Shown one piece after another: positions 35,065-47,193 of a DNA stretch of 64,000 nt; the stretch's first letter is position 1; each line of letters opens with the position of its first letter. The DNA is from Sulfuriferula plumbiphila (GTDB lineage: Bacteria > Pseudomonadota > Gammaproteobacteria > Burkholderiales > Sulfuriferulaceae), in contig NZ_AP021884.1 in the NCBI RefSeq assembly GCF_009938015.1, forward strand, positions 1,351,501 to 1,415,500, read 5' to 3'. The position numbers and the translations under genes were made by a program. The notes beneath the pieces were generated by a model, which saw only the letters and a program-made list of their open reading frames with translations, did no database searches and was not told the origin of the DNA.

Positions 35065-36039
35065 ATGCCCAACCTGTCTTTCAACGGCAATACCTATCAC
35101 TGTGCTGAAAATCAGTCGGTACTCGATGCGCTGACTGGGCATGGCGTATCCATCCCATCCTCGTGTCGCAGCGGCATATGCCAGACCTGTTTGATGCGGT
35201 CTGTAACTGGCAATGCGCCGGCTGATTCGCAAAATGGATTGAAGGAAACGCTGAAGGCGCAGCATTATTTTCTTGCCTGCAGCTGCCACCCCCGGGAAGA
35301 CATGGAAATTACCCTGCCGGATGCAGGCGTCGCACGCATCCAGGCGACCGTGCACAGCATTGAACCGCTCAACCACGAAATCATCTGCGTGGGACTGCAT
35401 TGTGAAAATCCGCTCGACTACCGGGCGGGGCAGTTCATCAATCTGTTCAAGGATGCGACACTGGGACGCAGTTACTCGCTGGCCAGCGTTCCGGCGCGCG
35501 ACCCGCATCTCAAATTGCATATCCGCAAGGTGCCCGACGGCCGGGTGAGCAGCTGGGCCCATCACAAGCTCAAACCAGGCGATGTCGTCGAGATCAGCTC
35601 AGCCGTAGGCAATTGCTTTTATGTGCCAGGCAACCCGCAACAGCCCATCCTGCTGATTGGAACCGGGTCTGGGCTTGCCCCGCTGTATGGCATTGCCCGC
35701 GATGCGCTTGAGCAGGGCCACACCGGGCCGATCAGGCTCTACCACGGCAGCAGAAATCCGCAAGGGCTGTATCTGGTGGACGAACTGCGCGCACTGGCAG
35801 AGCGCCACGACAATTTCAGCTACACTCCCTGTATTTCCGGTGACGCAATACCCGGGGACGCTTATGCCCCTGGTCGTGCCCTCGATGTGGCGCTGGCGGA
35901 CATCGGAAAACTGGCGGGATGGCGGGTGTTTCTATGCGGCAACCCCGAGATGGTAAAAACAGGCAGGAAGAAGACGTTTTTGACAGGTGCCGCCATGAAA
36001 GACATTTATGCCGATGCCTTTACGCTGGCTGCGGCTTAA
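35065..36039 (+). CDS. Ferredoxin-fused flavin NAD(P)H reductase
   Basis: A 324-residue cytosolic oxidoreductase with three parts. A plant-type [2Fe-2S] domain (residues 1-90) has ligands in SSCRSGICQTC and a later cysteine in FLACSC. An FAD-binding domain follows with RSYSLASVP near residue 133, then an NAD(P)-binding domain with GTGSGLAPLYGIARDAL near 199 and CGNPEMV near 292. Such proteins donate electrons to oxygenases or globins. A CAGGAGG site precedes the ATG. No oxygenase is adjacent, but a globin remnant lies directly upstream. Confidence 0.88.
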   Translation: MPNLSFNGNTYHCAENQSVLDALTGHGVSIPSSCRSGICQTCLMRSVTGNAPADSQNGLKETLKAQHYFLACSCHPREDMEITLPDAGVARIQATVHSIEPLNHEIICVGLHCENPLDYRAGQFINLFKDATLGRSYSLASVPARDPHLKLHIRKVPDGRVSSWAHHKLKPGDVVEISSAVGNCFYVPGNPQQPILLIGTGSGLAPLYGIARDALEQGHTGPIRLYHGSRNPQGLYLVDELRALAERHDNFSYTPCISGDAIPGDAYAPGRALDVALADIGKLAGWRVFLCGNPEMVKTGRKKTFLTGAAMKDIYADAFTLAAA

Positions 36040-36060
36040 TTCGAATACATTGGACACAGC

Positions 36061-36390
36061 ATGAAGAAATCCAGCTCGTGTTGCATTACCAACCTCAAAT
36101 CGATCTGAAATCAGGCCGTGTGATAGGTGCGGAAGCATTGCTGCGTTGGCACCGACCTGCGGGAGGCATGACGCTTCCCGCAGAATTTATCCCATTGGCT
36201 GCAGAAACCGGTCTAATCGGGCCCATCGACGAATGGGTGCCGAGCATCGCCTGCCTGGCATGCGCGTGGCCGTTAACCTGTCCGCAAAACAATTCATGCA
36301 ACAAGATCTGGTGCAGATTGTCGAGCAAACCCTTAATGTCGCGGGACTTGAAGCATACTACCTGGATTGGAAATTACCGAAAGCAGCCTC
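36061..36390 (+). pseudogene. Decayed EAL-domain (c-di-GMP phosphodiesterase) gene
   Basis: Three consecutive EAL-domain segments lie in three different frames. LVLHYQPQIDLKSGRVIGAE to FIPLAAETGLIGPIDEWV (36070-36237) is in one, RVAVNLSAKQFMQQDLVQIV (about 36260-36360) in the next, and LEITES (36367-36384) in the third. The start, the GGDEF or sensor part and the second half of the EAL barrel, including DDFGTG, are missing. At least two frameshifts and both truncations make it a clear pseudogene. Confidence 0.8.
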
Positions 36391-36451
36391 CCGCGATCTG
36401 GTGTTGCTCATGCAGCGTCTCCAGACGCGGCAGTGGCAGGTGCACTCCGGT

Positions 36452-37021
36452 CTATTCGCCGGACGATGGGTTCAGGAGTGGCGCTTCTTGTGGCGGGTAA
36501 GTGATGGTCGTGCCGGTCACCTTGGCAAAAGGCGTCAAGGTGTGCACCTGGCGGCGCGCCTCATTGATGATTTCCTCGGCGCGGATGCCGTGTACTACTA
36601 GCGCATCGGCAATCAGCGAACGATGGCAGCGCCACGGCACGGCCTCGGCGCACATCAACGCAATTCGCTGTTTACTTGCCAGTTCAATGAGGCTTGTCAG
36701 ATTCTTCGCAAATTCAGGAGTCTGCATGTAGTCGGCATAACCACGAAACGATGCGTTTCGCCAGCCCTTGTTCGGTGACGTCGAATCGGTATGGCGGAAG
36801 CCTCCCAGGCCAGCAACGTGGGTATAGCCGATCCCGGCCGTCAGCAGCGCGTCCGGCAATGTCTCGCGGTTGAACTGCGGGTTATGGCGTGAACGCGGCA
36901 CGGTACGCACGTCAAGAAGGCTGGTCACCGAGTGGGCCTTGAGCAGCGCAATAAACGCTTCCAGAGACCGCGTTGAATGGCCTACGGTCAAAACGACAGA
37001 ACGGGTGTCCTGATTCGTCAT
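36452..37021 (-). CDS. DUF488 family protein
   Basis: A 189-residue cytosolic protein. The family signatures TVGHSTRSLEAFIALLKAH near the N-terminus, DVRTVPRSRHNPQFN near residues 37-51, and ALMCAEAVPWRCHRSLIADAL near 122-142 are all present. The CxE...CHR motif is the conserved core. The function of DUF488 is unknown; a nucleic-acid or metal-related role has been suggested in general terms. It lies three bases after a uracil-DNA-glycosylase-like gene on the same strand, so the two probably form a unit. Confidence 0.85.
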   Translation of the reverse strand: MTNQDTRSVVLTVGHSTRSLEAFIALLKAHSVTSLLDVRTVPRSRHNPQFNRETLPDALLTAGIGYTHVAGLGGFRHTDSTSPNKGWRNASFRGYADYMQTPEFAKNLTSLIELASKQRIALMCAEAVPWRCHRSLIADALVVHGIRAEEIINEARRQVHTLTPFAKVTGTTITYPPQEAPLLNPSSGE

Positions 37022-37851: not shown

Positions 37852-38490
37852 CTATCTGCCCGGCTGCGCCTGGTCGAAGAATGCTGTCATGCTCGCAATT
37901 TCTTCGTCGGTAAATGGGTTTTGCAGCGTAGTCAGGTGCACGCCATGGATGCCGCCGAGCATGCGGGCGACAAATTCGTCCCGTGGCATGATCGCAGCCA
38001 TGGAGAAAAGATCAGGGGCCGGATTGGGCTGAGTCCGGTCGGGGTTCTGATGGCAGCCTATGCACAGGCTCTGATAAATCGACCGGCCGGTACGCAAACG
38101 CGCAGGGGTTGCTGTCAGGGGTGAAAAACCGGACATGTCCAATGGCAGGCTCGATTTGAGTTGACCAAGCCGCAGTGCGAATGCCCGGATGTTCTTGGTG
38201 GCAAACAGGACGCGCAAGCCGGCGACTTGTTTCCTTAACCCAGGCTGCGGCTGCTGGCCTTCCTGAACGGCGTAGCGCGCCAGCATCCCCAGTGTTCCGA
38301 GACTGCTGCGGATACGTTGCCGTAAGCCCTGACGCCGTAGCGGCGGCGTCGCGGGATCGATCAGGATTCTGGTGTCGCCATGCAACACAGCGATCTCCAC
38401 CCGCAAGCGCCGCTCATGCTCCCCGCTCGCCCATACAGGCGGGGCCGTGGCGAGCAATACCAGCGCGACCAGGATGCGCCCTATTGACAC
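37852..38490 (-). CDS. Exported monohaem cytochrome c
   Basis: A 212-residue protein with a signal peptide ending VWASG and a single haem c motif, CIGCH, near residue 142. The region before it is helical and rich in arginine and leucine, with no recognised domain. Methionines in LFSMAAIMPRDEF could be the second haem ligand. The last part, NPFTDEEIASMTAFF, matches class I cytochrome c C-terminal helices. The start is GTG at 38490. It is the last gene of the putative sulfur operon and probably takes electrons from a periplasmic oxidation step; that is inference. Confidence 0.8.
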   Translation of the reverse strand: MSIGRILVALVLLATAPPVWASGEHERRLRVEIAVLHGDTRILIDPATPPLRRQGLRQRIRSSLGTLGMLARYAVQEGQQPQPGLRKQVAGLRVLFATKNIRAFALRLGQLKSSLPLDMSGFSPLTATPARLRTGRSIYQSLCIGCHQNPDRTQPNPAPDLFSMAAIMPRDEFVARMLGGIHGVHLTTLQNPFTDEEIASMTAFFDQAQPGR

Positions 38491-38496
38491 AGGATT

Positions 38497-39429
38497 TTAT
38501 TCCACCTTGATTTTCTGCTCTATGGGCGCCTTCGGATCTGCGCTCCACTCGGCCATCGAACCGTCGTATACCCTGGCCAGCTTATTGCCGAGCAGCTCGC
38601 TGGAAACGAACCAGCCGAGTGAAGCCCAGTGGCCGGTATTGCAGAAATTGATTTCTTCTCCCTTGAGAGGGATGCCGGCATCCTTGTACAGTTTTTCCAG
38701 CTCGGCCACGCTGCGGAATTTGCCGCCGTTATTGTCGGTGAGCCAGCTCTCCGGCAGATTCTTTGCGCCTGGAATGGTGCCGTTGCGCTTCACCGTGGCG
38801 GGTGTCCGGTTTACCCCCAGGTACTGGTCGCTGGGACGGTTGTCGACAAGCAGGATGCCCTGTTTCCTGGCTTTTTCCACGTCTGCCTCGGTGGGATACA
38901 TGTCCTTGCGGAATTTCGCCACGAAGGTTTTCGGCTTGGGCTGGTTCATGCCGGTTTCAATCTTGTTGGCCTTATCCGCAGTGTAAGCGGCGTAGCCGCC
39001 ATTCAGGATGGAAACGTCGTCATGCCCGAGCACCTTGAGCGTCCAGTAAACGCGGGTGGCGCTGCCCATGTCCAGGGCGTTGCTGCCCGCCGAATAGATC
39101 ACCACGTGGGTGTTGCCGTCGATGCCCAGGCTGCCGATGAGTTTCTCAATCTGCGGAAGCGGCGGCAGCATGCCGGGGATATTGTTCACCTTGGCGCGCC
39201 AGCCATCTTTCATGTAGTCGCTATACACGGCGCAGGGAATATGGCCGCGTAGATAATCCATCTTGGAGTGGCCGTCAAGTTCGTTGCGGATATCCAGGAC
39301 CACGACGCCGGCCCTGCAGGAGTTCTGCTTGACCCAGTTGGTGTCCACGAGCGGGCCATCGGTCGCGGCGAATGCGGCTGCACTGGCGGTGGCCAGCCAA
39401 ACAACAGTCAAAAGCAAAATCCGTTTCAT
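38497..39429 (-). CDS. Periplasmic tandem-rhodanese sulfurtransferase
   Basis: A 310-residue exported protein with a signal peptide ending AAFAATDG and two rhodanese domains. The first (about 25-140) has no cysteine in its active loop (IYSAGSNALDMGSA). The second has INFCNTGHWASLGW near residue 270, with the catalytic cysteine. This arrangement is usual for thiosulfate:cyanide sulfurtransferases. AGGAGGAGAAATC gives an excellent ribosome site for the ATG at 39429; a longer frame runs into the small gene upstream. It should carry sulfane sulfur in the periplasm. Confidence 0.9.
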   Translation of the reverse strand: MKRILLLTVVWLATASAAAFAATDGPLVDTNWVKQNSCRAGVVVLDIRNELDGHSKMDYLRGHIPCAVYSDYMKDGWRAKVNNIPGMLPPLPQIEKLIGSLGIDGNTHVVIYSAGSNALDMGSATRVYWTLKVLGHDDVSILNGGYAAYTADKANKIETGMNQPKPKTFVAKFRKDMYPTEADVEKARKQGILLVDNRPSDQYLGVNRTPATVKRNGTIPGAKNLPESWLTDNNGGKFRSVAELEKLYKDAGIPLKGEEINFCNTGHWASLGWFVSSELLGNKLARVYDGSMAEWSADPKAPIEQKIKVE

Positions 39430-39653: not shown

Positions 39654-39932
39654 TCAAAAACTCATTATGCAATCGGCTTCCAGCATGGCTTCAGCCAGCG
39701 CAGCACTATCCAGCCAGGGAAGTTGCTCCTCGGCTATCGTAGTTTCCGGAGCAATATCGGCCAACTCCAGCAGGTCAAACTGCTCAGCATTTTCCGGCGT
39801 GTCTGCCACCGGAGCATTCATGAACACCAGGCGTACCCGATGGCCGAAAATCGTCAAGCCAGCGGCTACCCGCATAGCCTCCGCGTGATCACGCCGCCCG
39901 AGAAGCAGGATTGTCTTGATGGGTCCGGTCAT
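39654..39932 (-). CDS. Small protein, possibly DsrE/TusD-like
   Basis: A 92-residue cytosolic protein. KTILLLGRRDHAEAMRVAAGLTIFGHRVRLVFMN resembles the first beta-alpha-beta unit of DsrE/TusD-like folds, and the C-terminal LAEAMLEADCIMSF ends in a strand. The only cysteine is near the end, not at the position used in TusD or DsrE, so sulfur-carrying activity is doubtful. I chose the ATG at 39932; the longer frame runs into the next gene. It lies eight bases after the DsrE-like gene. Confidence 0.55.
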   Translation of the reverse strand: MTGPIKTILLLGRRDHAEAMRVAAGLTIFGHRVRLVFMNAPVADTPENAEQFDLLELADIAPETTIAEEQLPWLDSAALAEAMLEADCIMSF

Positions 39933-39940
39933 TTTTCGCC

Positions 39941-40231
39941 TCAAATTGTGACGACCCTGGCCGCGCTTGCGAGCAGGGCGCTGTGGCTGGTTTGGCTGCC
40001 GAGTTCCACGGGACAGCTTTCCCCCGCCATGAAGCGTTGCCACGAGTGCTCGCAGGCGAGTGCTGGCTTTGCCGCGTCCATCAGGCTTCGAATGCTGCTG
40101 TCGGCAAGCAGCCGAACGCCATCATTGGTGAAAAAACAGCCCCACATGATTCCTTTTCTGATGCAGGCATGTGCGAGCGGCGCCAGAATTTCGCCTCCCT
40201 GGTCGGTTGATATCACGAACAGCATTTCCAA
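39941..40231 (-). CDS. DsrE-like small protein
   Basis: A 96-residue cytosolic protein. MLFVISTDQGGEILAPLAHA opens a Rossmann-like unit and GCFFTNDGVRLL matches the DsrE/TusC pattern. A cysteine in GESCPVELG sits near the position of the active cysteine in DsrE-type sulfur carriers, followed by a helix and a final strand. The TTG at 40231 is supported by AAGGAG seven bases upstream; the ATG at 40225 is an alternative. Transfer of sulfur with the nearby TusA-like protein is inferred. Confidence 0.6.
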   Translation of the reverse strand: MEMLFVISTDQGGEILAPLAHACIRKGIMWGCFFTNDGVRLLADSSIRSLMDAAKPALACEHSWQRFMAGESCPVELGSQTSHSALLASAARVVTI

Positions 40232-41206
40232 CTAGCTTCTCCTTTTTCCCAAGTAGAAAAATCCTGCTGAAAACGCGGCCAGCATAAAGATACCGCCAAG
40301 CACCAGCACAATTTGACCAGGCTTCGCCTGCTCTGCTGGTCGCTTCGCAGGCGCGCCGGCCAGCACAGGATCCGGATAAGTAACGGAGTCCATCGGCAAC
40401 GCCGGGTGGTTCGCCCAATCCACCCAGCCGTCTGGGAAAACCCGCGCATCCACGCCCGCGCCAGCCCGCAGCAAGGTAAAGTAGGCAACCGATTCGAATG
40501 GGTCGTCAGCGTATACGACCAATCCATCCCGCAACGGCAGCTGCCAGGCTCCCTGGGCCAGTTGCCCGCGCGCCTTGGGAATCGGCAAGGATTGCGCTCC
40601 CGGCAGATGGCCGCCGCGCAGGGCCCGAATCCGTTCTCCCCAGTACTCGTCCTCGCTGCGCCCATCCAGCAATAGCGGTGGATGGGTTGCCGCCAATGCT
40701 TGCGCCAGCTCGTTGCGCAGTACGATGCGGTCTTCGCGCACGACACCCTGGTAAATTGGGTTGCGCGTCATCCCGCGGCCCGTGCCCTGTCCCATTTGGG
40801 TCTGTTCCAGACCCGCTCTCCGGGCGACGGGGATGGAGAGAATCGACACTTTCTCCTGGCCGCACAGATACAGCATGCCCGCCACGAAATCACGCTCGGT
40901 AGGATCATCACCGACTACCAGTACATGCGCTTTCTCCGACAATCCGGCGGTTCCCAAAAGCCAATAGATTTCGCGAAAGCTCGCGAGGCGTCCGTGCGGG
41001 CCAAGAAAATCGGCAGCGGGAAGGCAGTGGGCGCCGCGCACGGTGTAACGCAGGCAGGCGTTCTCAGCGCGCGCGTCCACTACTGTCACACTGCCGATCA
41101 GATTCGACGCATGATCGGTGTAGCCGAACGCAGCGTCTGAAGCCTGACTACTCCCGGTCTGCGCCATCCACAGCATGGCGAAAAGGATCGGGAAACATTT
41201 ACGCAT
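40232..41206 (-). CDS. Exported, membrane-anchored rhodanese-like protein without catalytic cysteines
   Basis: A 324-residue protein with a signal peptide ending SQASDA, two rhodanese-like domains (about 30-140 and 155-275) and a C-terminal transmembrane helix (IVLVLGGIFMLAAFSAGFFYL). In both active loops the expected cysteine is an aspartate: VVGDDPTERD in the first and VVYADDPFESV in the second. It therefore should not act as a sulfurtransferase and may bind a ligand or partner instead. It lies between a small membrane-protein gene and the DsrE-like gene, with almost no spacing. Confidence 0.8.
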   Translation of the reverse strand: MRKCFPILFAMLWMAQTGSSQASDAAFGYTDHASNLIGSVTVVDARAENACLRYTVRGAHCLPAADFLGPHGRLASFREIYWLLGTAGLSEKAHVLVVGDDPTERDFVAGMLYLCGQEKVSILSIPVARRAGLEQTQMGQGTGRGMTRNPIYQGVVREDRIVLRNELAQALAATHPPLLLDGRSEDEYWGERIRALRGGHLPGAQSLPIPKARGQLAQGAWQLPLRDGLVVYADDPFESVAYFTLLRAGAGVDARVFPDGWVDWANHPALPMDSVTYPDPVLAGAPAKRPAEQAKPGQIVLVLGGIFMLAAFSAGFFYLGKRRS

Positions 41207-41217
41207 GGCCAGCTATT

Positions 41218-41490
41218 TCAACATCCGCCAAACCGGTGCTGACCATCGTCTGCTGCGGCAGTACCTTTCGGCGCAGGTGGATGTTCGATGTAATAGCCGA
41301 CCAGGTCGGTGACCGATACCGTCCCATAGGCACTGCCTAAATTGACGTCCTGCATGCTTTCCATGGGCTGGGGAATGCGTGATTTTGCCAGCACGTCGGA
41401 TGTTACAGCAGCGTAGCGGTACAGCAGCGCCGCCAGCCCGAAGCCGATAGCCAGGGCCACCAGCCAAAAAATCAAAATTTCTTTCTTCAT
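41218..41490 (-). CDS. Small membrane protein, 90 residues
   Basis: One N-terminal transmembrane helix (about residues 5-26) is followed by an exported tail of about 60 residues. The tail contains NLGSAYGTVSVTDLVGYYIE and a proline-rich end, and the protein terminates in a cysteine (RFGGC). The VTDLVGYYIEHPP pattern recalls LNMLVRHYQ in the 72-residue protein two genes upstream, so the two may be related. I do not recognise a family. It is positioned as a subunit of a membrane complex with the neighbouring small proteins. Confidence 0.65.
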   Translation of the reverse strand: MKKEILIFWLVALAIGFGLAALLYRYAAVTSDVLAKSRIPQPMESMQDVNLGSAYGTVSVTDLVGYYIEHPPAPKGTAAADDGQHRFGGC

Positions 41491-41501: not shown

Positions 41502-41594
41502 TCAGAAAACGTCCTTGGCAAGGCAGACATAGGTGATATAGAAAGCCACCACAAACATGACGATCTGCAGAATGGTTGCAAAATCCAGTGTCAT
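41502..41594 (-). CDS. 30-residue membrane microprotein
   Basis: ATG at 41594 to TGA at 41502 encodes a 30-residue peptide that is almost one transmembrane helix (MTLDFATILQIVMFVVAFYI, then TYVCLAKDVF). Its ATG overlaps the stop of the preceding gene (ATGA), the same coupling seen elsewhere in the operon. GGGAAAGGACAAATC, at the end of the preceding gene, is a strong ribosome site. It is probably a small helper subunit of the membrane complex formed here. Confidence 0.6.
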   Translation of the reverse strand: MTLDFATILQIVMFVVAFYITYVCLAKDVF

Positions 41595-41809
41595 GATTTG
41601 TCCTTTCCCTGGTAATGCCTGACCAGCATGTTCAAATCCAGTGCCTTGCCATCGGCGGGATTGATGACCGGGGGGGTGAAGTAGGGCACCCCTTGCCGGG
41701 TAGCCTGAAGATAGGCCGGGTGTTCCATGAAGATGTATGCCAGGCCACCTACTGTCACGGCAGCCGACAGTACCGAAAACACCACCATTTGCAATTTTGC
41801 GAAGCGCAT
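41591..41809 (-). CDS. Small membrane protein, 72 residues
   Basis: One transmembrane helix (about residues 8-28) followed by an exported tail with GVPYFTPPVINPADGKALDLNMLVRHYQ. I chose the ATG at 41809, supported by GAGGAAACGGCG, over a longer frame overlapping tusA. No family is recognised. Its stop overlaps the start of the 30-residue gene. It resembles the 90-residue product in layout. Confidence 0.7.
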   Translation of the reverse strand: MRFAKLQMVVFSVLSAAVTVGGLAYIFMEHPAYLQATRQGVPYFTPPVINPADGKALDLNMLVRHYQGKDKS

Positions 41810-41819
41810 CGCCGTTTCC

Positions 41820-42128
41820 TCAATCTTTACGCACATAGACATGCCAGCAACGGTCCGCCCTGACGGTGGCAAGGTGCGAGCTACGCAGATCTTTCATCAT
41901 GGGTGGAATGGCTTCCATGGAAGTGGCGTTGTCAATCAGGACCTCAAAGGCGTCACCCGGAACCGCCGTGGAGAGCGCCTTTTTCGTCATCAACTGGGGA
42001 CGCGGGCAGGAGTCGCCCAGACAGTTGATCTGCTGTTTGATGACAAGCCTGGTGCCGTCCGGCAACACCGCCTGCGTCGATTGTCCTGCGCCATGTGCTG
42101 GCTCGGTTTTTTTGCTGAAAAGTCCCAT
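41820..42128 (-). CDS. TusA/SirA-family sulfur carrier protein
   Basis: A 102-residue cytosolic protein. NCLGDSCPRPQLMTKKAL near residues 35-52 carries the CPxP motif whose first cysteine holds persulfide sulfur in TusA. An N-terminal extension of about 25 residues (GLFSKKTEPAHGAGQ) is longer than in E. coli TusA. The fold continues with GDAFEVLIDNATSMEAIPPMM. It follows two YeeE/YedE half-transporter genes, the usual association of TusA with sulfur import. Confidence 0.88.
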   Translation of the reverse strand: MGLFSKKTEPAHGAGQSTQAVLPDGTRLVIKQQINCLGDSCPRPQLMTKKALSTAVPGDAFEVLIDNATSMEAIPPMMKDLRSSHLATVRADRCWHVYVRKD

Positions 42129-42158: not shown

Positions 42159-42857
42159 TTATGCCGGCTGGACAGACTCCGCCCTCGCCGCCATGGCACC
42201 TTGCACGGCAGGCTCTACGGGTGCCTCGGCCCAGGCGTCACAGGCTGCTGATTCGATGGCCGCGGCTTCTGGCTCGGGCACCTCCGCACGCTCCCGCTTC
42301 AGGATCGCACGGTAGATGCCGAACAGGACCAGCGTCTGTAACGCGCCAAATACGATTGCCGGGATACCGGTCTTGCTCTGCAGCGTTGCCGCATTGGCGA
42401 AACCGAACTGCAGCCCCGCAAGATTAGGGGTGCCGGTCATGGTCTGCGGCGCGGGCGGCCAGAAGTCGAAGGACCAGAACAGTGAAAACAGGAACATGCC
42501 GATAAAGGTGAACAGCAGCGCCCAGATCGCGCCGATGTTTCCCTCTCCCGCCTTGACCCAGGTGGACACCGTACATGCACCGGCCAGCACCATGCCAAGG
42601 CCAAACAGAAACAGTCCGATGAAGGTGTTCAAGCCGACATCGAAATACATGGGCTTGCCCGCGCCGATGGTGATGAAGGCGGTAAATCCCAGCGTCATGA
42701 TCATCATCGCCACCAGCATGGCTTTGGTATTGCGATAGGTCTTGAACAGCATGGCATCGCGCAGGGCCGCCACGTTGCAGTAGCGCGAGCGCTGCACCAG
42801 CAGTCCCACGGTGGTGCCAAAGATAAACGCCGTCAGGCATTCTGCCAAAGGTGTCAT
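42159..42857 (-). CDS. YeeE/YedE-type transporter half
   Basis: A 232-residue membrane protein with about five helices. The YeeE/YedE motif QRSRYCNVAALRDAM occurs near residues 22-36 and LAGACTVSTW near 91-100; the cysteines match those used for thiosulfate relay in the TsuA/YeeE family. A glutamate- and alanine-rich cytoplasmic tail of about 45 residues follows the last helix. It pairs with the adjacent gene, which encodes the other half, so together they correspond to one full-length transporter. Confidence 0.87.
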   Translation of the reverse strand: MTPLAECLTAFIFGTTVGLLVQRSRYCNVAALRDAMLFKTYRNTKAMLVAMMIMTLGFTAFITIGAGKPMYFDVGLNTFIGLFLFGLGMVLAGACTVSTWVKAGEGNIGAIWALLFTFIGMFLFSLFWSFDFWPPAPQTMTGTPNLAGLQFGFANAATLQSKTGIPAIVFGALQTLVLFGIYRAILKRERAEVPEPEAAAIESAACDAWAEAPVEPAVQGAMAARAESVQPA

Positions 42858-42858
42858 T

Positions 42859-43350
42859 TCATCCCTCCAGATTTTTCTTGTAAATCCAGGTGCCGACCCA
42901 GGTGCCGGCCAGAATGCCGCTCACCGCCAGGTAACCGCCCAGGTTCATCTCCGGCGTAAGCCCGAAAAATGTGCTCACATTGCACACGAAGGCAAGCCTG
43001 ATGCCGATCCCCATGAGCAGCCCGCCGATGGTGATCATTACCCATTCCGTCAGGCGGTGCGGCATGCGCCAGCAGAACTCCTTGCTGAGGACTGCGCCCA
43101 CAAAGGCGCCAAACACCATTCCCAGACTGATGTAAATCTTCCAGTAGTAGGGGTCTGGCGGGAATGCCACGTTCCAGAACGGGATACGATCGATGGCGCC
43201 GCCCATGAAGAATTTGGCGATAAGCCCGGTCATCATGGTTTCGCCGCCGCCGACAGTCCATGCGCCGACAACCAGAAACAGAAATATGTCGAGCACGGCG
43301 ATGATCGCCAGCGCCGCAACAGGATTAAGGGTTTTTTTGAATAGCTCCAT
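42859..43350 (-). CDS. YeeE/YedE-type transporter half, first gene of the sigma54 operon
   Basis: A 163-residue membrane protein with four to five helices. LLMGIGIRLAFVCNVSTFFG near residues 115-135 is the YeeE/YedE repeat with its conserved cysteine; a second cysteine lies in KEFCWRMPHR. I chose the ATG at 43350 because GGAG is seven bases upstream; an ATG at 43362 would add four residues. It is the first gene downstream of the sigma54 promoter, with a predicted leader of about 45 bases, and ends one base before the second half gene. Confidence 0.86.
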   Translation of the reverse strand: MELFKKTLNPVAALAIIAVLDIFLFLVVGAWTVGGGETMMTGLIAKFFMGGAIDRIPFWNVAFPPDPYYWKIYISLGMVFGAFVGAVLSKEFCWRMPHRLTEWVMITIGGLLMGIGIRLAFVCNVSTFFGLTPEMNLGGYLAVSGILAGTWVGTWIYKKNLEG

Positions 43351-43406
43351 CCGGCTCTCCATTAGGTCTTATGGTCACGCTATTGGAAGCGTGTTGATAT
43401 ACCATA

Positions 43407-43422
43407 AGCAATGGTTATGCCA
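43407..43422 (-). promoter_or_regulatory. Sigma54 (-24/-12) promoter of the sulfur operon
   Basis: On the minus strand the sequence is TGGCATAACCATTGCT. This is the -24/-12 consensus TGGCAY-N5-TTGCW, with ten bases between the GG and GC dinucleotides. It faces the YeeE/YedE gene that starts at 43350, giving a predicted transcription start near 43396. The adjacent upstream gene encodes an NtrC-type activator, which is what this promoter type requires. Confidence 0.82.
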
Positions 43423-43461
43423 TGAACATATTATTTATTATATTCAATATGTTGATGTGAA

Positions 43462-43480
43462 TGCACAGAAAAAATGTGCA
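43462..43480. promoter_or_regulatory. Palindromic site upstream of the sigma54 promoter
   Basis: A perfect inverted repeat, TGCACA then seven A/G bases then TGTGCA, lies 40-58 bases upstream of the -24 element, between the promoter and the activator gene. Its half-sites equal those of NtrC-type enhancers, with two extra bases of spacing. It is the best candidate for the activator's binding site. Confidence 0.6.
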
Positions 43481-43511
43481 GTAATGTGATTTAAAATGCT
43501 ACAGGGATGGG

Positions 43512-44861
43512 TCAGAATTGGGCAGGGGATAAAAGATTCATTTCTTCCAGTTTTCTGCGCAACGTCGAGCGGCTGATGCCCAAAACGCGGGCGGCGGCAA
43601 CCTGGTTGCCGTGATTTTCGGCCAATATGCGCCGGATGTGTTCGGCTTCCGTCTGGGCCAGGGTTTTGTTCTTCTCCGCTGTATCCAGCGCATTCGGTTT
43701 CATCGACAGCGAGATTTCGTGCGCTTCCAGAACCGGTCCGCCGTGGAGCGCAAAACTGCGCTCCACGACATTTTTTAATTCCCGAACATTGCCCGGCCAA
43801 TCGTACTCGACCAGTTTTTGCCGGGCGGCCGGACTCAGATTGAGATCGTTACGCCCCAGCTGTTTGCGCTCCAGGCCAAGGAAGTGATCGATCAGCGGCA
43901 GAATGTCTTCGCGTCTTTCCCGCAGCGGGGGGATATGGATGGGGAGCACGTTCAGGCGGAACAGCAGATCGCGGCGGAAGCTTCCCTGGTTCGCCATTTC
44001 CTCCAGATCGCAGTTGGTCGCCGCGATGATGCGCACGTTTACCTTGATCGGGGTTTCACTGCCGACCGGGCGCACCTCTCCCTCCTGCAGGGCACGCAGC
44101 AGTTTTGCCTGGAGGCGCGGGCTGACGTCGCCGATCTCATCCAGAAAAAGCGTGCCGCCATGCGCTTGCTGAAACAGCCCCTTGCGGTTCGAAGTGGCGC
44201 TGGTAAACGAGCCCTTGATGTGACCGAACAGTTCTGAATCCAGCAACTCTTCCGGCAATGTGCAGCAATTGATCGCGACCAAGGGACCGTGGCTGCGGGC
44301 GCTGACGCTATGGATGACGTTCGCCAGAACTTCTTTGCCGGTGCCCGTTTCTCCGGTGATCAGCACAGGCAGGTCGCGGTCCCGGATGCGTTCGACGATT
44401 TGCCGAATCTCCACCATGCGTGGACTGCGTGCGGCGATATGGCCGAATTTGCCACGTCCGGACAATTCCCCGCGCAAACGGGTGACTTCCTCGCTCAGGG
44501 ATTTTTTCTCCAGCACTTTGCGCACCCGCAACAACAACTCGTCCGGGTTGATCGGCTTGGTGAGGTAATCGTAGGCACCCAGACGCATGGCTTCTACCGC
44601 GGTTTCGATGGAAGCGTAGGCGGTCATCATGATGCTCTCCGCCGCGTAACCGGTCTCCTTCAGGTAGGTTAGCAGGTCCAGGCCGCTTTCCTCCCCGATA
44701 CGCATGTCGGTGATCACCAGATCCACGATATGCTTGTCCAGGCAGGCTTTGGCAGCTGCCAGATTGCTTGCCTCCAGGGCCAGATGCTGGTCCGTCTTCA
44801 GCAGCAGTCCGAGTGTTTTGCGGATGGAAAACTCGTCGTCCACGATCAGTATGGTCGCCAT
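43512..44861 (-). CDS. NtrC-family sigma54-dependent response regulator
   Basis: A 449-residue activator. The receiver domain has Asp8, Asp9, the phosphorylation site Asp52 and Lys102. The AAA domain has Walker A GETGTGKE (170-177) and GGTLFLDEIGDVSP as Walker B. The sigma54-contacting loop is GSFTSA (217-222) rather than GAFTGA. A Fis-type helix-turn-helix ends the protein (GNQVAAARVLGISRSTLRRK). It starts two bases after the kinase gene and lies directly upstream of the sigma54 promoter it presumably controls. Confidence 0.92.
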   Translation of the reverse strand: MATILIVDDEFSIRKTLGLLLKTDQHLALEASNLAAAKACLDKHIVDLVITDMRIGEESGLDLLTYLKETGYAAESIMMTAYASIETAVEAMRLGAYDYLTKPINPDELLLRVRKVLEKKSLSEEVTRLRGELSGRGKFGHIAARSPRMVEIRQIVERIRDRDLPVLITGETGTGKEVLANVIHSVSARSHGPLVAINCCTLPEELLDSELFGHIKGSFTSATSNRKGLFQQAHGGTLFLDEIGDVSPRLQAKLLRALQEGEVRPVGSETPIKVNVRIIAATNCDLEEMANQGSFRRDLLFRLNVLPIHIPPLRERREDILPLIDHFLGLERKQLGRNDLNLSPAARQKLVEYDWPGNVRELKNVVERSFALHGGPVLEAHEISLSMKPNALDTAEKNKTLAQTEAEHIRRILAENHGNQVAAARVLGISRSTLRRKLEEMNLLSPAQF

Positions 44862-44863
44862 GG

Positions 44864-46324
44864 TTAGCTCACGCCGTTCAATTGAAAACTGACTTCGGTG
44901 CCGGCACCCTGCTTGCTGACGATGTCAAGCTGAGTGTCATGCTGCACCAGGATACGTTGCACGATGGCGAGGCCCAGGCCGGTGCCGCCCTTGCGGCTGG
45001 AGACGAAGGGCTTGGTGACTTTTTCCAGGAACTGCGGCGCGATGCCACAGCCGGTGTCCGCAATGCTCACCATTATTTTCTCTCCGTCGCGTCGCGTCCG
45101 TACCGACAGTTCGCCGCCTTCGGGCATGGATTGCAGCGCGTTCAGCATGAGATTCCACAATACCTGGCGCATCTGGTCGCGATCGAAAACCGCTGTTTGC
45201 GCATCCGGCGCACAGCTAACGGTAAGATGCAGATGCTTTCCCGTCCGATGATCCTGATACAGCATGTTGGCGATTTCCTCGATTAGCCCTTTCAGGTCGG
45301 CGCGTGTCGGCTCCGATTCGCGAATTTTGGCGAAATCCAGGAAATCGCCAAGGATGCGGCTCAAACGCCCGGATTCGTTGTTCAGGATGGAGATCACCTG
45401 GGTGCGCTCTTCCCGGTTCAAGGCGTCGCCACCCAGCAGGTTGACCGAATTGATAATCGCGGATAGCGGATTGCGTATTTCATGGGCAATGGTAGCCGAC
45501 ATTTCGCCCACGCAAGCGAGCCGTTCCGCCTGGGTGCGCCGTTCGTGCTCCTGGGCGGCATCTTCCGAGGCACGCTTGAGCGAAGCCACCATGTTATTGA
45601 AAGCAATGGCCAGCATGCCCGCCTCGTCCTGTGAATTGGCGGGAACCCTCACGTCAAGGTCGCCCCGGCTGATCTTGCGCGCAGCCTCCATCATGTTGTG
45701 CAGCCCGCGCGTGGTGAGCAGGGAAAGCGCCCATGCGGCAGCGCTACCCACTATCAGTGCCGCGAGAATGAAAAACAAGCCCTCGCGCCAGGTTCTGGCC
45801 AAGGCGGAGTCCATGCGGACGGTGGACAGTCCGAGCGTAACGGTGCCGACTGTCTGGCCGGCAATACGAATCCGCTCTTGCAGATCGAGGATATGGTCAC
45901 CTGCTGCCAGCGGGAACTGCTCCGGTTTGGCGACCAGCAATGGCAGTTCTTTACCCAGCCGTTCCGGATGGGTAGTCCCCAGCACGCGCCCGCGTGAGTC
46001 CAAAATTTCGCAATACACCACATCGGGCTGGCTTTTGACCCGCTGAATGATTTCCGCGAGCGCCCCGAGATCCTCGGTGAGCAGGGCATTGGTGGATGCC
46101 ACTGCGGTCAGGGCAACCAGGGAACGTCCGCGACTGTATAGCTCGGCCTGGATTCTGTCCGACTGCTCCTGTACCGCGTCGGCGACGAATACGCCCATCA
46201 GCACGACATGTACCAGCGCTACCGAAAGCATCAGGCGGAAACGCAGGGTATGGGTGAATCCGGTGGTTGTTTTCGCAGTTCTGGCAGGCGCGATGGAGGG
46301 ATGACCGGATTCGGGCACGCTCAT
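44864..46324 (-). CDS. Membrane sensor histidine kinase
   Basis: A 486-residue kinase. Two transmembrane helices (about residues 31-50 and 183-205) bracket a periplasmic domain of about 130 residues. A HAMP domain follows, then HisKA with the phospho-acceptor His281 in HEIRNPL, then an ATPase domain with NLMLNALQSM, ADTGCGIAP and GGTGLGLAI. Its ATG overlaps the stop of the PhnD-like gene (ATGA), so the binding protein probably feeds ligand information to this sensor. The response regulator is next. Confidence 0.92.
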   Translation of the reverse strand: MSVPESGHPSIAPARTAKTTTGFTHTLRFRLMLSVALVHVVLMGVFVADAVQEQSDRIQAELYSRGRSLVALTAVASTNALLTEDLGALAEIIQRVKSQPDVVYCEILDSRGRVLGTTHPERLGKELPLLVAKPEQFPLAAGDHILDLQERIRIAGQTVGTVTLGLSTVRMDSALARTWREGLFFILAALIVGSAAAWALSLLTTRGLHNMMEAARKISRGDLDVRVPANSQDEAGMLAIAFNNMVASLKRASEDAAQEHERRTQAERLACVGEMSATIAHEIRNPLSAIINSVNLLGGDALNREERTQVISILNNESGRLSRILGDFLDFAKIRESEPTRADLKGLIEEIANMLYQDHRTGKHLHLTVSCAPDAQTAVFDRDQMRQVLWNLMLNALQSMPEGGELSVRTRRDGEKIMVSIADTGCGIAPQFLEKVTKPFVSSRKGGTGLGLAIVQRILVQHDTQLDIVSKQGAGTEVSFQLNGVS

Positions 46325-47193
46325 TTACCCACCTTGGCATACTCGCTATCGTCGGCGAGCACGAAGCCCTGGGGAAGTTCCATGCCGCGAAGAATCCGCC
46401 GACCGTCCGGCGTGCTGCTTAGATCTACCAGAACCTCGGCAACCGTTTTCGCGTCATGCGCGGGCATGTCGCCGCGCACGGCAATCGGCATCTGCGGCTG
46501 CGGCGGGGTCTCGGCGACGATCCGCAGCGCTTGCTGGACGTCTTTCGGCATGGAACGCAGGGAAGGCTTCCAGGTGCCGGCGATATCCACCAGCCCGGAA
46601 TACAATGCCATCAGCACGGAGTCTTGAGAACCGAAATATTTCACCTTGAAATCCTTGTCTACCATGATGCCCAGGGTTTCCAGGTAACGTCGCGTCATCA
46701 CGGTCGCCGCGAAAGCGCCGGGGTCGGGAAAACCCAGACGCAGTCCCGGTGGCAGACGATGCGCGGCAAGTTCGGTGATGCTGCTGTCACGGCGCACCAC
46801 CAGGATGCCGGTGAAGGGTTCCCCCGCTATTTTGGCCACAACGTGATAGCCGGATTTTTGCGCTTCGGCGAAAAGCATGGGGTTGAGGTACACAATGTCG
46901 TATTCCCGCTGTGCGACGCGTTGCATAAAAACAGAAAAACTCGGAGCGGTTACAAATTGCACCGGGCGGTGCAGGCGATCTCCCAGCACCTTGGCCAGCG
47001 GCAGGAACATGGATGCCAGCTTGTTCGGGCTTTGCAGGGGCAGCACGCCGAAGCGGTAAGGAGGTAAGTCAGGTGGCTGGGCGTGGGCAACGAAGGAAGG
47101 CAGACATGCACCCGCGAGCATCAAAAAGACTGCCACGCACGTAACCCGTGCTATCCGGCTGCGGGTTTCTGAGCAGAACAAGCGCCATCTCAT
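46321..47193 (-). CDS. PhnD-type periplasmic substrate-binding protein linked to a sensor kinase
   Basis: A 290-residue exported protein of the phosphate/phosphite/phosphonate-binding family. A signal peptide ending FVAHAQ precedes PYRFGVLPLQSPNKLASMFLPLAKVLGDRL. The family signatures REYDIVYLNPMLFAEAQK and GEPFTGILVVRRDS follow, then FPDPGAFAATVMTRRYL. No ABC transporter genes are nearby. Overlap with a histidine kinase gene suggests a sensory role. The genomic context points to a sulfur oxyanion rather than phosphonate as ligand, which is inference. Confidence 0.85.
   Translation of the reverse strand: MRWRLFCSETRSRIARVTCVAVFLMLAGACLPSFVAHAQPPDLPPYRFGVLPLQSPNKLASMFLPLAKVLGDRLHRPVQFVTAPSFSVFMQRVAQREYDIVYLNPMLFAEAQKSGYHVVAKIAGEPFTGILVVRRDSSITELAAHRLPPGLRLGFPDPGAFAATVMTRRYLETLGIMVDKDFKVKYFGSQDSVLMALYSGLVDIAGTWKPSLRSMPKDVQQALRIVAETPPQPQMPIAVRGDMPAHDAKTVAEVLVDLSSTPDGRRILRGMELPQGFVLADDSEYAKVGK

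Follow-up and report, generated by a model that had tools for sequence, protein, structure and literature searches.

The window, a stretch of 64,000 nucleotides within the single-contig 3.45-Mb genome of Sulfuriferula plumbiphila (contig NZ_AP021884.1, positions 1,351,501 to 1,415,500), carries a sulfur-relay operon that is likely, as judged by sequence comparison, to be controlled through sigma54 by an AioX-AioS-AioR-type three-component system. The original prediction had claimed that a sigma54 promoter drives the yeeE operon next to a gene for an NtrC-type activator, and the comparison of related loci supported this claim. It had overlooked the periplasmic binding protein, which makes the system a three-component one, as well as a probable activator-binding element and a probable alternative regulator of the RHH_4 family.

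The three genes of the module are encoded on the minus strand. The sensor component (X) is a PhnD-like periplasmic binding protein (46321..47193; PF12974, E 1.7e-51). It is followed by a histidine kinase (component S, 44864..46324), in which Pfam recognized a periplasmic-type sCache domain together with HAMP, HisKA and HATPase domains, and by an NtrC-type regulator (component R, 43512..44861) with a receiver domain, an AAA+ sigma54-activator domain and a Fis-type HTH, likewise assigned by Pfam. The Walker A (GETGTGK) and LDEI motifs of the regulator are intact. Its sigma54-contact loop reads GSFTSA, not GAFTGA, in the window and in seven close orthologs, and the other module loci that were read have GAFTGA, GAFTSA, GAYTGA or GSYTGA. 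This non-canonical contact loop leaves some doubt on sigma54 activation in this lineage. The genome contains one strong rpoN match (217.9 bits) and two weak ones, and 18 matches to sigma54-activator domains, 14 of which are strong (>200 bits). When 369 genomes of the class were searched, a regulator ortholog (E <= 1e-115) was present in 8 and a close YeeE1 (66% or more) in 11, and all 8 genomes with the regulator belonged to these 11. Upstream of the binding-protein gene, where autoregulation would be expected to act, 16 loci gave sigma54-like matches that were weak throughout. The closest paralogous regulator in the genome (42%) is located beside what appears by eye to be a formate dehydrogenase operon. 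A regulator with 51% identity in genome G323 had no clear target.

The regulator ORF ends at 43512 and the first ATG of yeeE1 is at 43362 on the same strand, leaving a gap of about 150 bases. Within this gap, pattern, matrix and comparison point to a sigma54 -24/-12 promoter, TGGCATAACCATTGCT, on the minus strand at 43422-43407 (43407..43422). Its GG and GC are ten bases apart and its core is TGGC-N7-TTGC, which confirmed the near-perfect site with correct GG-10-GC spacing claimed at the outset. The claimed distance of 45 bases to the first YeeE gene holds for the ORF starting at 43362; read by eye, a start at the second ATG (43350), which follows a GGAG, is more likely. From the usual sigma54 spacing, transcription would be expected to start at about 43396. 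The strict consensus TGGCAYRNNNNTTGCW had one exact match in the 64 kb, namely the TGGCATAACCATTGCT site, while the looser set with up to two mismatches was at chance level in the window (49 found vs 50.4 expected). In the whole genome, the strict pattern occurred 20 times vs 2 for the pattern read backwards. This excess taken alone is suggestive, and the main evidence for the site is comparative. Some of the 19 further strict matches lie near activator genes (e.g. 2261446, 2263310, 2266480 and 2409179). With a position matrix whose weights are approximate and not fitted to these data, TGGCATAACCATTGCT was the top-scoring site of the window at 16.0, followed by a runner-up at 15.4, and none of 400 shuffles of the upstream region that holds it equalled its score. 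As a further reference, 0.37, 1.0 and 3.4% of 3000 random 312-base stretches from 80 related loci reached scores of 15.8, 13.5 and 11, respectively.

The conservation of the promoter was examined in 81 loci, comprising the window and the best 80 of 128 confirmed relatives from a YeeE1 scan of genome contigs. The 80 loci are titled as alpha-, beta- and gammaproteobacteria and SAR324, and the operon order is kept in most of them; the operon is widespread among Proteobacteria. One locus titled Rhizobium (L061) groups with Thiobacillus on the tree, so its label is doubtful. The matrix was run on the 300 bases upstream of yeeE1, and some loci have little upstream sequence (430 bases in L064, 501 in L088 and 649 in L094). 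The module lies directly upstream in 17 of the 80 loci and in the window, 18 in all. In L133 it follows the cytochrome gene on the downstream side; this locus was counted as module-positive to give 19 positive and 62 negative loci. The contig of L066 starts within the kinase gene, so that its kinase and regulator are visible and the binding protein was not seen. All 18 loci with the upstream module have an exact TGGC-N7-TTGC located 26-54 bases before the first codon of yeeE1, with scores of 11.6-18.3, and the rearranged L133 retains a site scoring 13.55. The flanks of these sites are variable, with a mean majority-base fraction of 0.48 (the core columns being fixed by the search pattern). Only three of the 62 module-negative loci reached a score of 11 (L108 and L110 with 15.9 each, L126 with 11.0). 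All three are RHH_4 loci and close relatives of each other, with nearly identical sequence at 97-98 bases.

Predictions fixed beforehand were then compared with further genomes. They held for G323, G394, G144 and G268 and failed for G216; only G323 and G144 are new loci, and G394, G268, G115 and G214 match L071, L066, L065 and L070. The sites of G323 and G144, which have regulator orthologs, scored 17.2 and 15.8. G216 has a regulator ortholog (59%, module downstream), but the 300 bases before yeeE1 contain no site (best score 2.96). A weaker site (11.9) was found there after the fact, 1376 bases upstream, before a porin-like gene. The prediction of RHH_4 and no sigma54 site failed in all three of G185, G267 and G327. 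These genomes have no ortholog of the regulator and possess strong sites (15.8 at 46 bases, 14.9 at 148 bases and 16.5 at 169 bases, respectively), which means that such sites also occur where this activator is missing. In the stretches read, none of the three showed RHH_4, and the 14-kb regions of G267 and G327 (loci L175 and L177) also yielded no activator gene. In G185, genes for a PhnD-type binding protein, a kinase and an NtrC-type regulator that are not orthologous to those of the window lie beyond the operon on the other strand (L176:10578-14001, -). Their identities to the corresponding proteins of the window are 26, 23 and 38%, and the locus may represent another, separate instance of this control logic. 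G037 has RHH_4 (87%) and no site (2.0).

The original prediction had made conservation of the -24/-12 element upstream of orthologous operons a test of its claim. The element was indeed conserved where an orthologous activator module is present, in 21 of 22 loci, but this did not extend to loci without the module, of which 6 of 66 have a site. In a quick tree built from both YeeE proteins, the module label switches three times, which gives two to three independent pairs. The module arose about once on this tree, and these pairs are too few for a formal test. The strength of the comparison is that a short promoter core is kept between variable flanks among loci whose regulators are as little as about 60% identical, and not that the module was gained repeatedly. 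This comparison suggests that the sigma54 site of the window is functional.

A probable activator-binding element lies between the regulator gene and the promoter. It is an imperfect inverted repeat at 43486..43517, composed of TTCTGACCCA (43517-43508, minus strand) and CTGTAGCATTTTAAATCAC (43504-43486, minus strand), and its TTCTGACCCA half overlaps the regulator stop codon. A 19-base motif was learned from six other, gammaproteobacterial loci and tested on the module-positive loci held out from the training. The window scored 16.9, which none of 200 shuffles reached. The 14 held-out loci, which do not form an independent set (L100 nearly duplicates the training locus L103, and there are several closely related betaproteobacterial loci), all scored 11.9-28.3, values reached by at most 1.5% of 200 shuffles. 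In the 62 module-negative loci the best score was 11.6 and the median 3.4. Counted from the first codon of yeeE1, the match is at -134 to -146 in 11 loci; L133 and L134 have it at -197, and L066 has it at -296. It abuts or overlaps the regulator stop codon in most loci, and L071 has it some 60 bases beyond the stop. Moreover, in most betaproteobacterial loci the better half is on the opposite strand, as expected of an inverted repeat. L133 is informative because the element is present there without a regulator gene at that place.

In several loci the first columns of the motif coincide with the regulator stop codon. Because four columns of the motif hold this codon in the training loci, the test was repeated in a stricter form with 15 columns, the stop-codon columns being dropped and G144 being added to give 15 held-out loci. 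Fourteen of the 15 exceeded all 62 negatives (best 10.6), 14 had their best match in the equivalent place, and 13 did both; the best strict match of L062 is elsewhere. The copy in the window was weak in this test, with a score of 10.4 that was reached by 17 of 200 shuffles and is just under the best negative, and this slightly lowered our confidence in the regulatory architecture. The element was absent upstream of yeeE1 in G185, G267 and G327 (2.9-3.3) and in G037, the four together ranging over 2.9-4.5, and none was found near yeeE1 in G216 (2.6). The latter has an element-like match (11.4) at -1487, about 110 bases above its weaker sigma54 site before the porin-like gene, which was noticed post hoc. 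In the genome, the window-type element is exact only here, and with up to three mismatches there was one other match vs three for a reversed control. These results point to 43486-43517 as the probable activator site, where the regulator would bind. Two other candidates were rejected. L056, a locus with a 99% identical YeeE1, lacks the palindrome TGCACA-N7-TGTGCA that lies a short way before the promoter (about 43457-43475), and a hand-weighted dyad model separated the loci poorly (18-24 in module-positive vs 15-19 in negative loci), with many scores within the shuffle range.

Other explanations of the promoter were weighed against these data. It is very unlikely that the -24/-12 match arose by chance and that transcription of the operon comes from a sigma70 promoter or simply continues from the regulator gene. 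The chance frequency of the loose matches in the window is in line with such an accident. Read-through would fit the placement of regulator and operon on one strand with about 150 bases between them, and a search of 43300-43700 revealed no terminator-like site on the minus strand. However, a chance match is at odds with the presence of the site in 21 of 22 module-positive loci including the rearranged L133, and the interval 43300-43700 has no sigma70-like site on the minus strand (one on the plus strand, 0.7 expected). It also seems improbable that the sigma54 promoter is served by another activator, for example a global NtrC, while the adjacent module serves other genes. The element is situated between the adjacent regulator and the promoter, tracks that regulator in the held-out loci and is missing upstream of yeeE1 in G185, G267 and G327, all of which argues against a foreign activator. 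So do the single exact copy of the element in the genome, with one match at three mismatches vs three for the reversed control, and the restriction of regulator orthologs to operon-bearing genomes (8 of 8). What favors another activator is that G267 and G327 have the site with no activator gene detected in their 14-kb regions, that the genome has 14 strong activator domains, and that the element of the window is weak in the stricter test.

The contact loop raises a further explanation, to which we give hardly any weight. The regulator with its GSFTSA loop could have drifted from sigma54 activation and now act as a repressor or a sigma70 regulator, with the -24/-12 site left as a relic. The loop indeed departs from GAFTGA in the window and the seven close orthologs, but the promoter core is intact in the same eight loci, distant orthologs keep GAFTGA or near forms in the same arrangement, and neither the Walker A nor the LDEI motif has decayed. 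Control of the operon by the adjacent module through sigma54 remains the preferred reading.

The operon runs on the minus strand in the order yeeE1, yeeE2, tusA, smA, smB, rhd1, the DsrE-like gene, a small protein gene, rhd2 and a cytochrome c gene, ten genes in total. yeeE1 (42859..43362, start probably 43350) encodes the C-terminal half of a YeeE-type sulfur transporter (PmpA-like; PF04143 positions 171-310), and its C127 is kept in all 81 loci. yeeE2 (42159..42857) encodes the N-terminal half (PmpB-like; PF04143 positions 1-185), with C27 and C95 each kept in 79 of 79 loci. The TusA-type sulfur carrier (41820..42128; PF01206, E 2.8e-14) has its C41 kept in 77 of 77. smA (41591..41821), a small conserved protein aligned from 68 loci including the window, and smB (41218..41490) had no match in Pfam or NCBIfam. 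SmB has one N-terminal hydrophobic stretch, as seen by eye, and a C-terminal cysteine (FGGC). Cysteine is the last residue in all 69 loci in which the gene was detected (FGGC in 51, FQGC in 12); smB was undetected in 12 of the 81 loci, some of them at contig ends. SoxY bears a cysteine on a C-terminal arm, and by analogy SmB is possibly a membrane-tethered sulfur-carrying arm.

Rhd1 (40232..41206; PF00581, E 1.1e-8) is rhodanese-like, with a signal sequence and a C-terminal membrane helix recognized by eye, and its C51 and C61 are kept in 68 of 68 loci. The DsrE-like small protein (39941..40231) had no Pfam match itself; its orthologs match PF02635 with E-values of 8.7e-4 and 0.022, both under the cut-off, and its C60 is kept in 69 of 69 loci. 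It is followed by a second small conserved protein of unknown family (39654..39932), which had no Pfam match and whose reading frame is kept across loci. Rhd2 (38497..39429) is a two-domain rhodanese (PF00581, two stretches) with a signal sequence seen by eye, and its C264 is kept in 62 of 62 loci. The last gene encodes a cytochrome c (37852..38490; PF13442, E 3.3e-5, under its cut-off), in which both CxxC cysteines of the haem site are kept in 61 of 61 loci. A plausible model, as opposed to a result, is a relay in which sulfur passes from the periplasmic rhodaneses and SmB by way of the split YeeE to TusA. At 35919-36601 on the plus strand, frames resembling pieces of an EAL domain occur in different frames by eye, possibly a decayed gene.

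Loci without the module mostly have a gene for another probable regulator. A divergent RHH_4 gene (PF13467) was found within 600 bases of yeeE1 in 52 of the 62 module-negative loci; two of the remaining loci have RHH_4 elsewhere and eight have none. RHH_4 occurred in 0 of the 19 module-positive loci, and none was found in the genome of the window. RHH_4 is a probable alternative regulator of the yeeE-type sulfur genes, and its family and position suggest that it would repress the operon. On the operon tree, L058 and L064 are nested among module-positive relatives and have RHH_4 and no promoter, a pattern which suggests that the module was replaced by RHH_4. An RHH_4 gene is also present at L193:1092-1388 (-).

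The binding protein was further compared with proteins of known structure. By sequence, its PDB relatives are ArrX (the best match, E 2e-11), HtxB, PtxB, PhnD and AioX. Its predicted structure had a pLDDT of 85.7, and among the 50 matches listed in a fold search with this model, ArrX had the top TM-score (TMt 0.81) and PtxB came first by E-value. The structure prediction and the fold search confirm the binding-protein fold only. According to PMC5908839, the AioX pocket consists of Tyr88, Cys106, Tyr131, Ser161, Ser163, His192 and Asp210. At these positions, as mapped via the alignment with ArrX and the spacing of residues, the protein of the window carries Phe85, Asn103, Phe126, Ala159, Ala161, Gln189 and Trp207. 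None of the seven pocket residues is retained, and the replacements are invariant in 15 orthologs. Moreover, there is no cysteine after the signal region. By its sequence, the protein appears AioX-like in role and is a different sensor, not an AioX.

As to the ligand, the same paper reports that arsenite was the only one of the tested anions to be bound by AioX and ArxX; thiosulfate and tetrathionate were among those not bound (PMC5908839). For the PhnD-like domain of TtrS, PMC5408782 proposes tetrathionate as the ligand, and looking for domains of this kind led to ThsS, a thiosulfate sensor. A weak TtrS match was also obtained here, with an E-value of 7.5e-4 that falls far short of its cut-off. 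Our best guess, slightly more likely than not, is a reduced sulfur anion, because PhnD-like domains are the likely sensors of TtrS and ThsS and the target is a sulfur operon. The ligand would most probably be thiosulfate or a polythionate.

From the gene content, the promoter, its conservation and its co-occurrence with the module, we infer the following scheme of ligand sensing, phosphorelay, activator binding, looping and direction of sulfur flow. The PhnD-like protein (47193-46321) would bind a reduced sulfur anion and engage the periplasmic domain of the kinase, which would then phosphorylate the NtrC-type regulator. The regulator would assemble on the inverted repeat (43517-43486), which lies some 110 bases ahead of the predicted start, loop to sigma54-RNA polymerase at 43422-43407 and remodel it by ATP hydrolysis, whereupon the operon from yeeE1 to the cytochrome gene would be transcribed. 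Sulfane sulfur would pass from the periplasmic rhodaneses and the Cys-tipped SmB into the split YeeE channel, with TusA and the DsrE-like protein as the next acceptors. The cell would probably turn on the sulfur relay only on sensing an external sulfur compound. More tentatively, we propose as a whole that an AioXSR-type sensor with a new pocket reads a periplasmic reduced sulfur anion and acts through sigma54 on a widespread relay operon with a SoxY-like, Cys-tipped SmB, and that elsewhere the module has been swapped for a divergent RHH_4, so that two unrelated controls, one kinase-gated and one probably a direct repressor, would serve the same operon.

Several known systems resemble parts of this arrangement. 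AioXSR and ArxXSR for arsenite and ArrXSR for arsenate likewise have the genes for a PhnD-family periplasmic sensor, a kinase and a regulator together. The passages of PMC5908839 describe for Aio and Arx a regulator with an AAA+ domain and a target with an RpoN promoter and an upstream regulator site. Here, too, an RpoN promoter with an upstream regulator site precedes the target, although the regulator site of the window itself scores weakly once the stop-codon columns are dropped, and the target is the yeeE sulfur operon, not an arsenic oxidase or reductase. In Acidithiobacillus caldus, TspS-TspR is, according to the passages of PMC6335251, a sigma54-dependent kinase/regulator system of the sox-II cluster with thiosulfate as the potential signal. 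It shares with the window a sigma54-type kinase/regulator pair beside sulfur-oxidation genes, but its target is a sox cluster, and no sox family was found among the Pfam matches of the window operon proteins. The original prediction had likewise set this gene set apart from the Acidithiobacillus sox genes under sigma54 two-component control. The TspR element TGTCCCAAATGGGACA had no match beyond chance in the window (one with two mismatches, at 40788 inside rhd1; 0.57 expected).

ThsS/ThsR (thiosulfate) and TtrS/TtrR (tetrathionate) also have a PhnD-like PF12974 domain as the likely sensor, as described in the passages of PMC5408782. In ThsS and TtrS, however, this domain is part of the kinase, whereas the window has a separate protein and an NtrC-type regulator. 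TtrR-type regulators are not known to be sigma54 activators. PmpA and PmpB resemble the window pair in being two half-length YeeE-family proteins, C- and N-terminal halves with a conserved cysteine each, in the available text of PMC11582611. They have about 130 residues, while the window halves are longer (163-167 and 232) and belong to a ten-gene sulfur operon. The thiocyanate dehydrogenase operon of Thioalkalivibrio thiocyanoxidans adjoins genes for a kinase and a sigma54 Fis-family regulator, again a sulfur-compound oxidation operon next to such a pair; its kinase has a GAF domain, its enzymes are other ones, and YeeE and TusA are unnamed in the passages of PMC5744179.

Taken together, the locus would be an XSR/sigma54 system of the sort described for arsenic metabolism, connected here to a sulfur operon. 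In the parts seen of the open-access literature on YeeE operons, sigma54 control and XSR sensors, we found no description of this operon with this regulation. The sensing of external sulfur by the regulators of sulfur oxidisers is called poorly understood in PMC11582611. Here, one locus brings together a sensor, an activator, a probable binding site, a promoter and a target, and Sulfuriferula multivorans TTN (L062) has the same arrangement. A thiosulfate- or polythionate-binding protein, if the proposed ligand is true, would be a useful biosensor part. Furthermore, the control systems swapped on one operon would make regulator replacement directly comparable.
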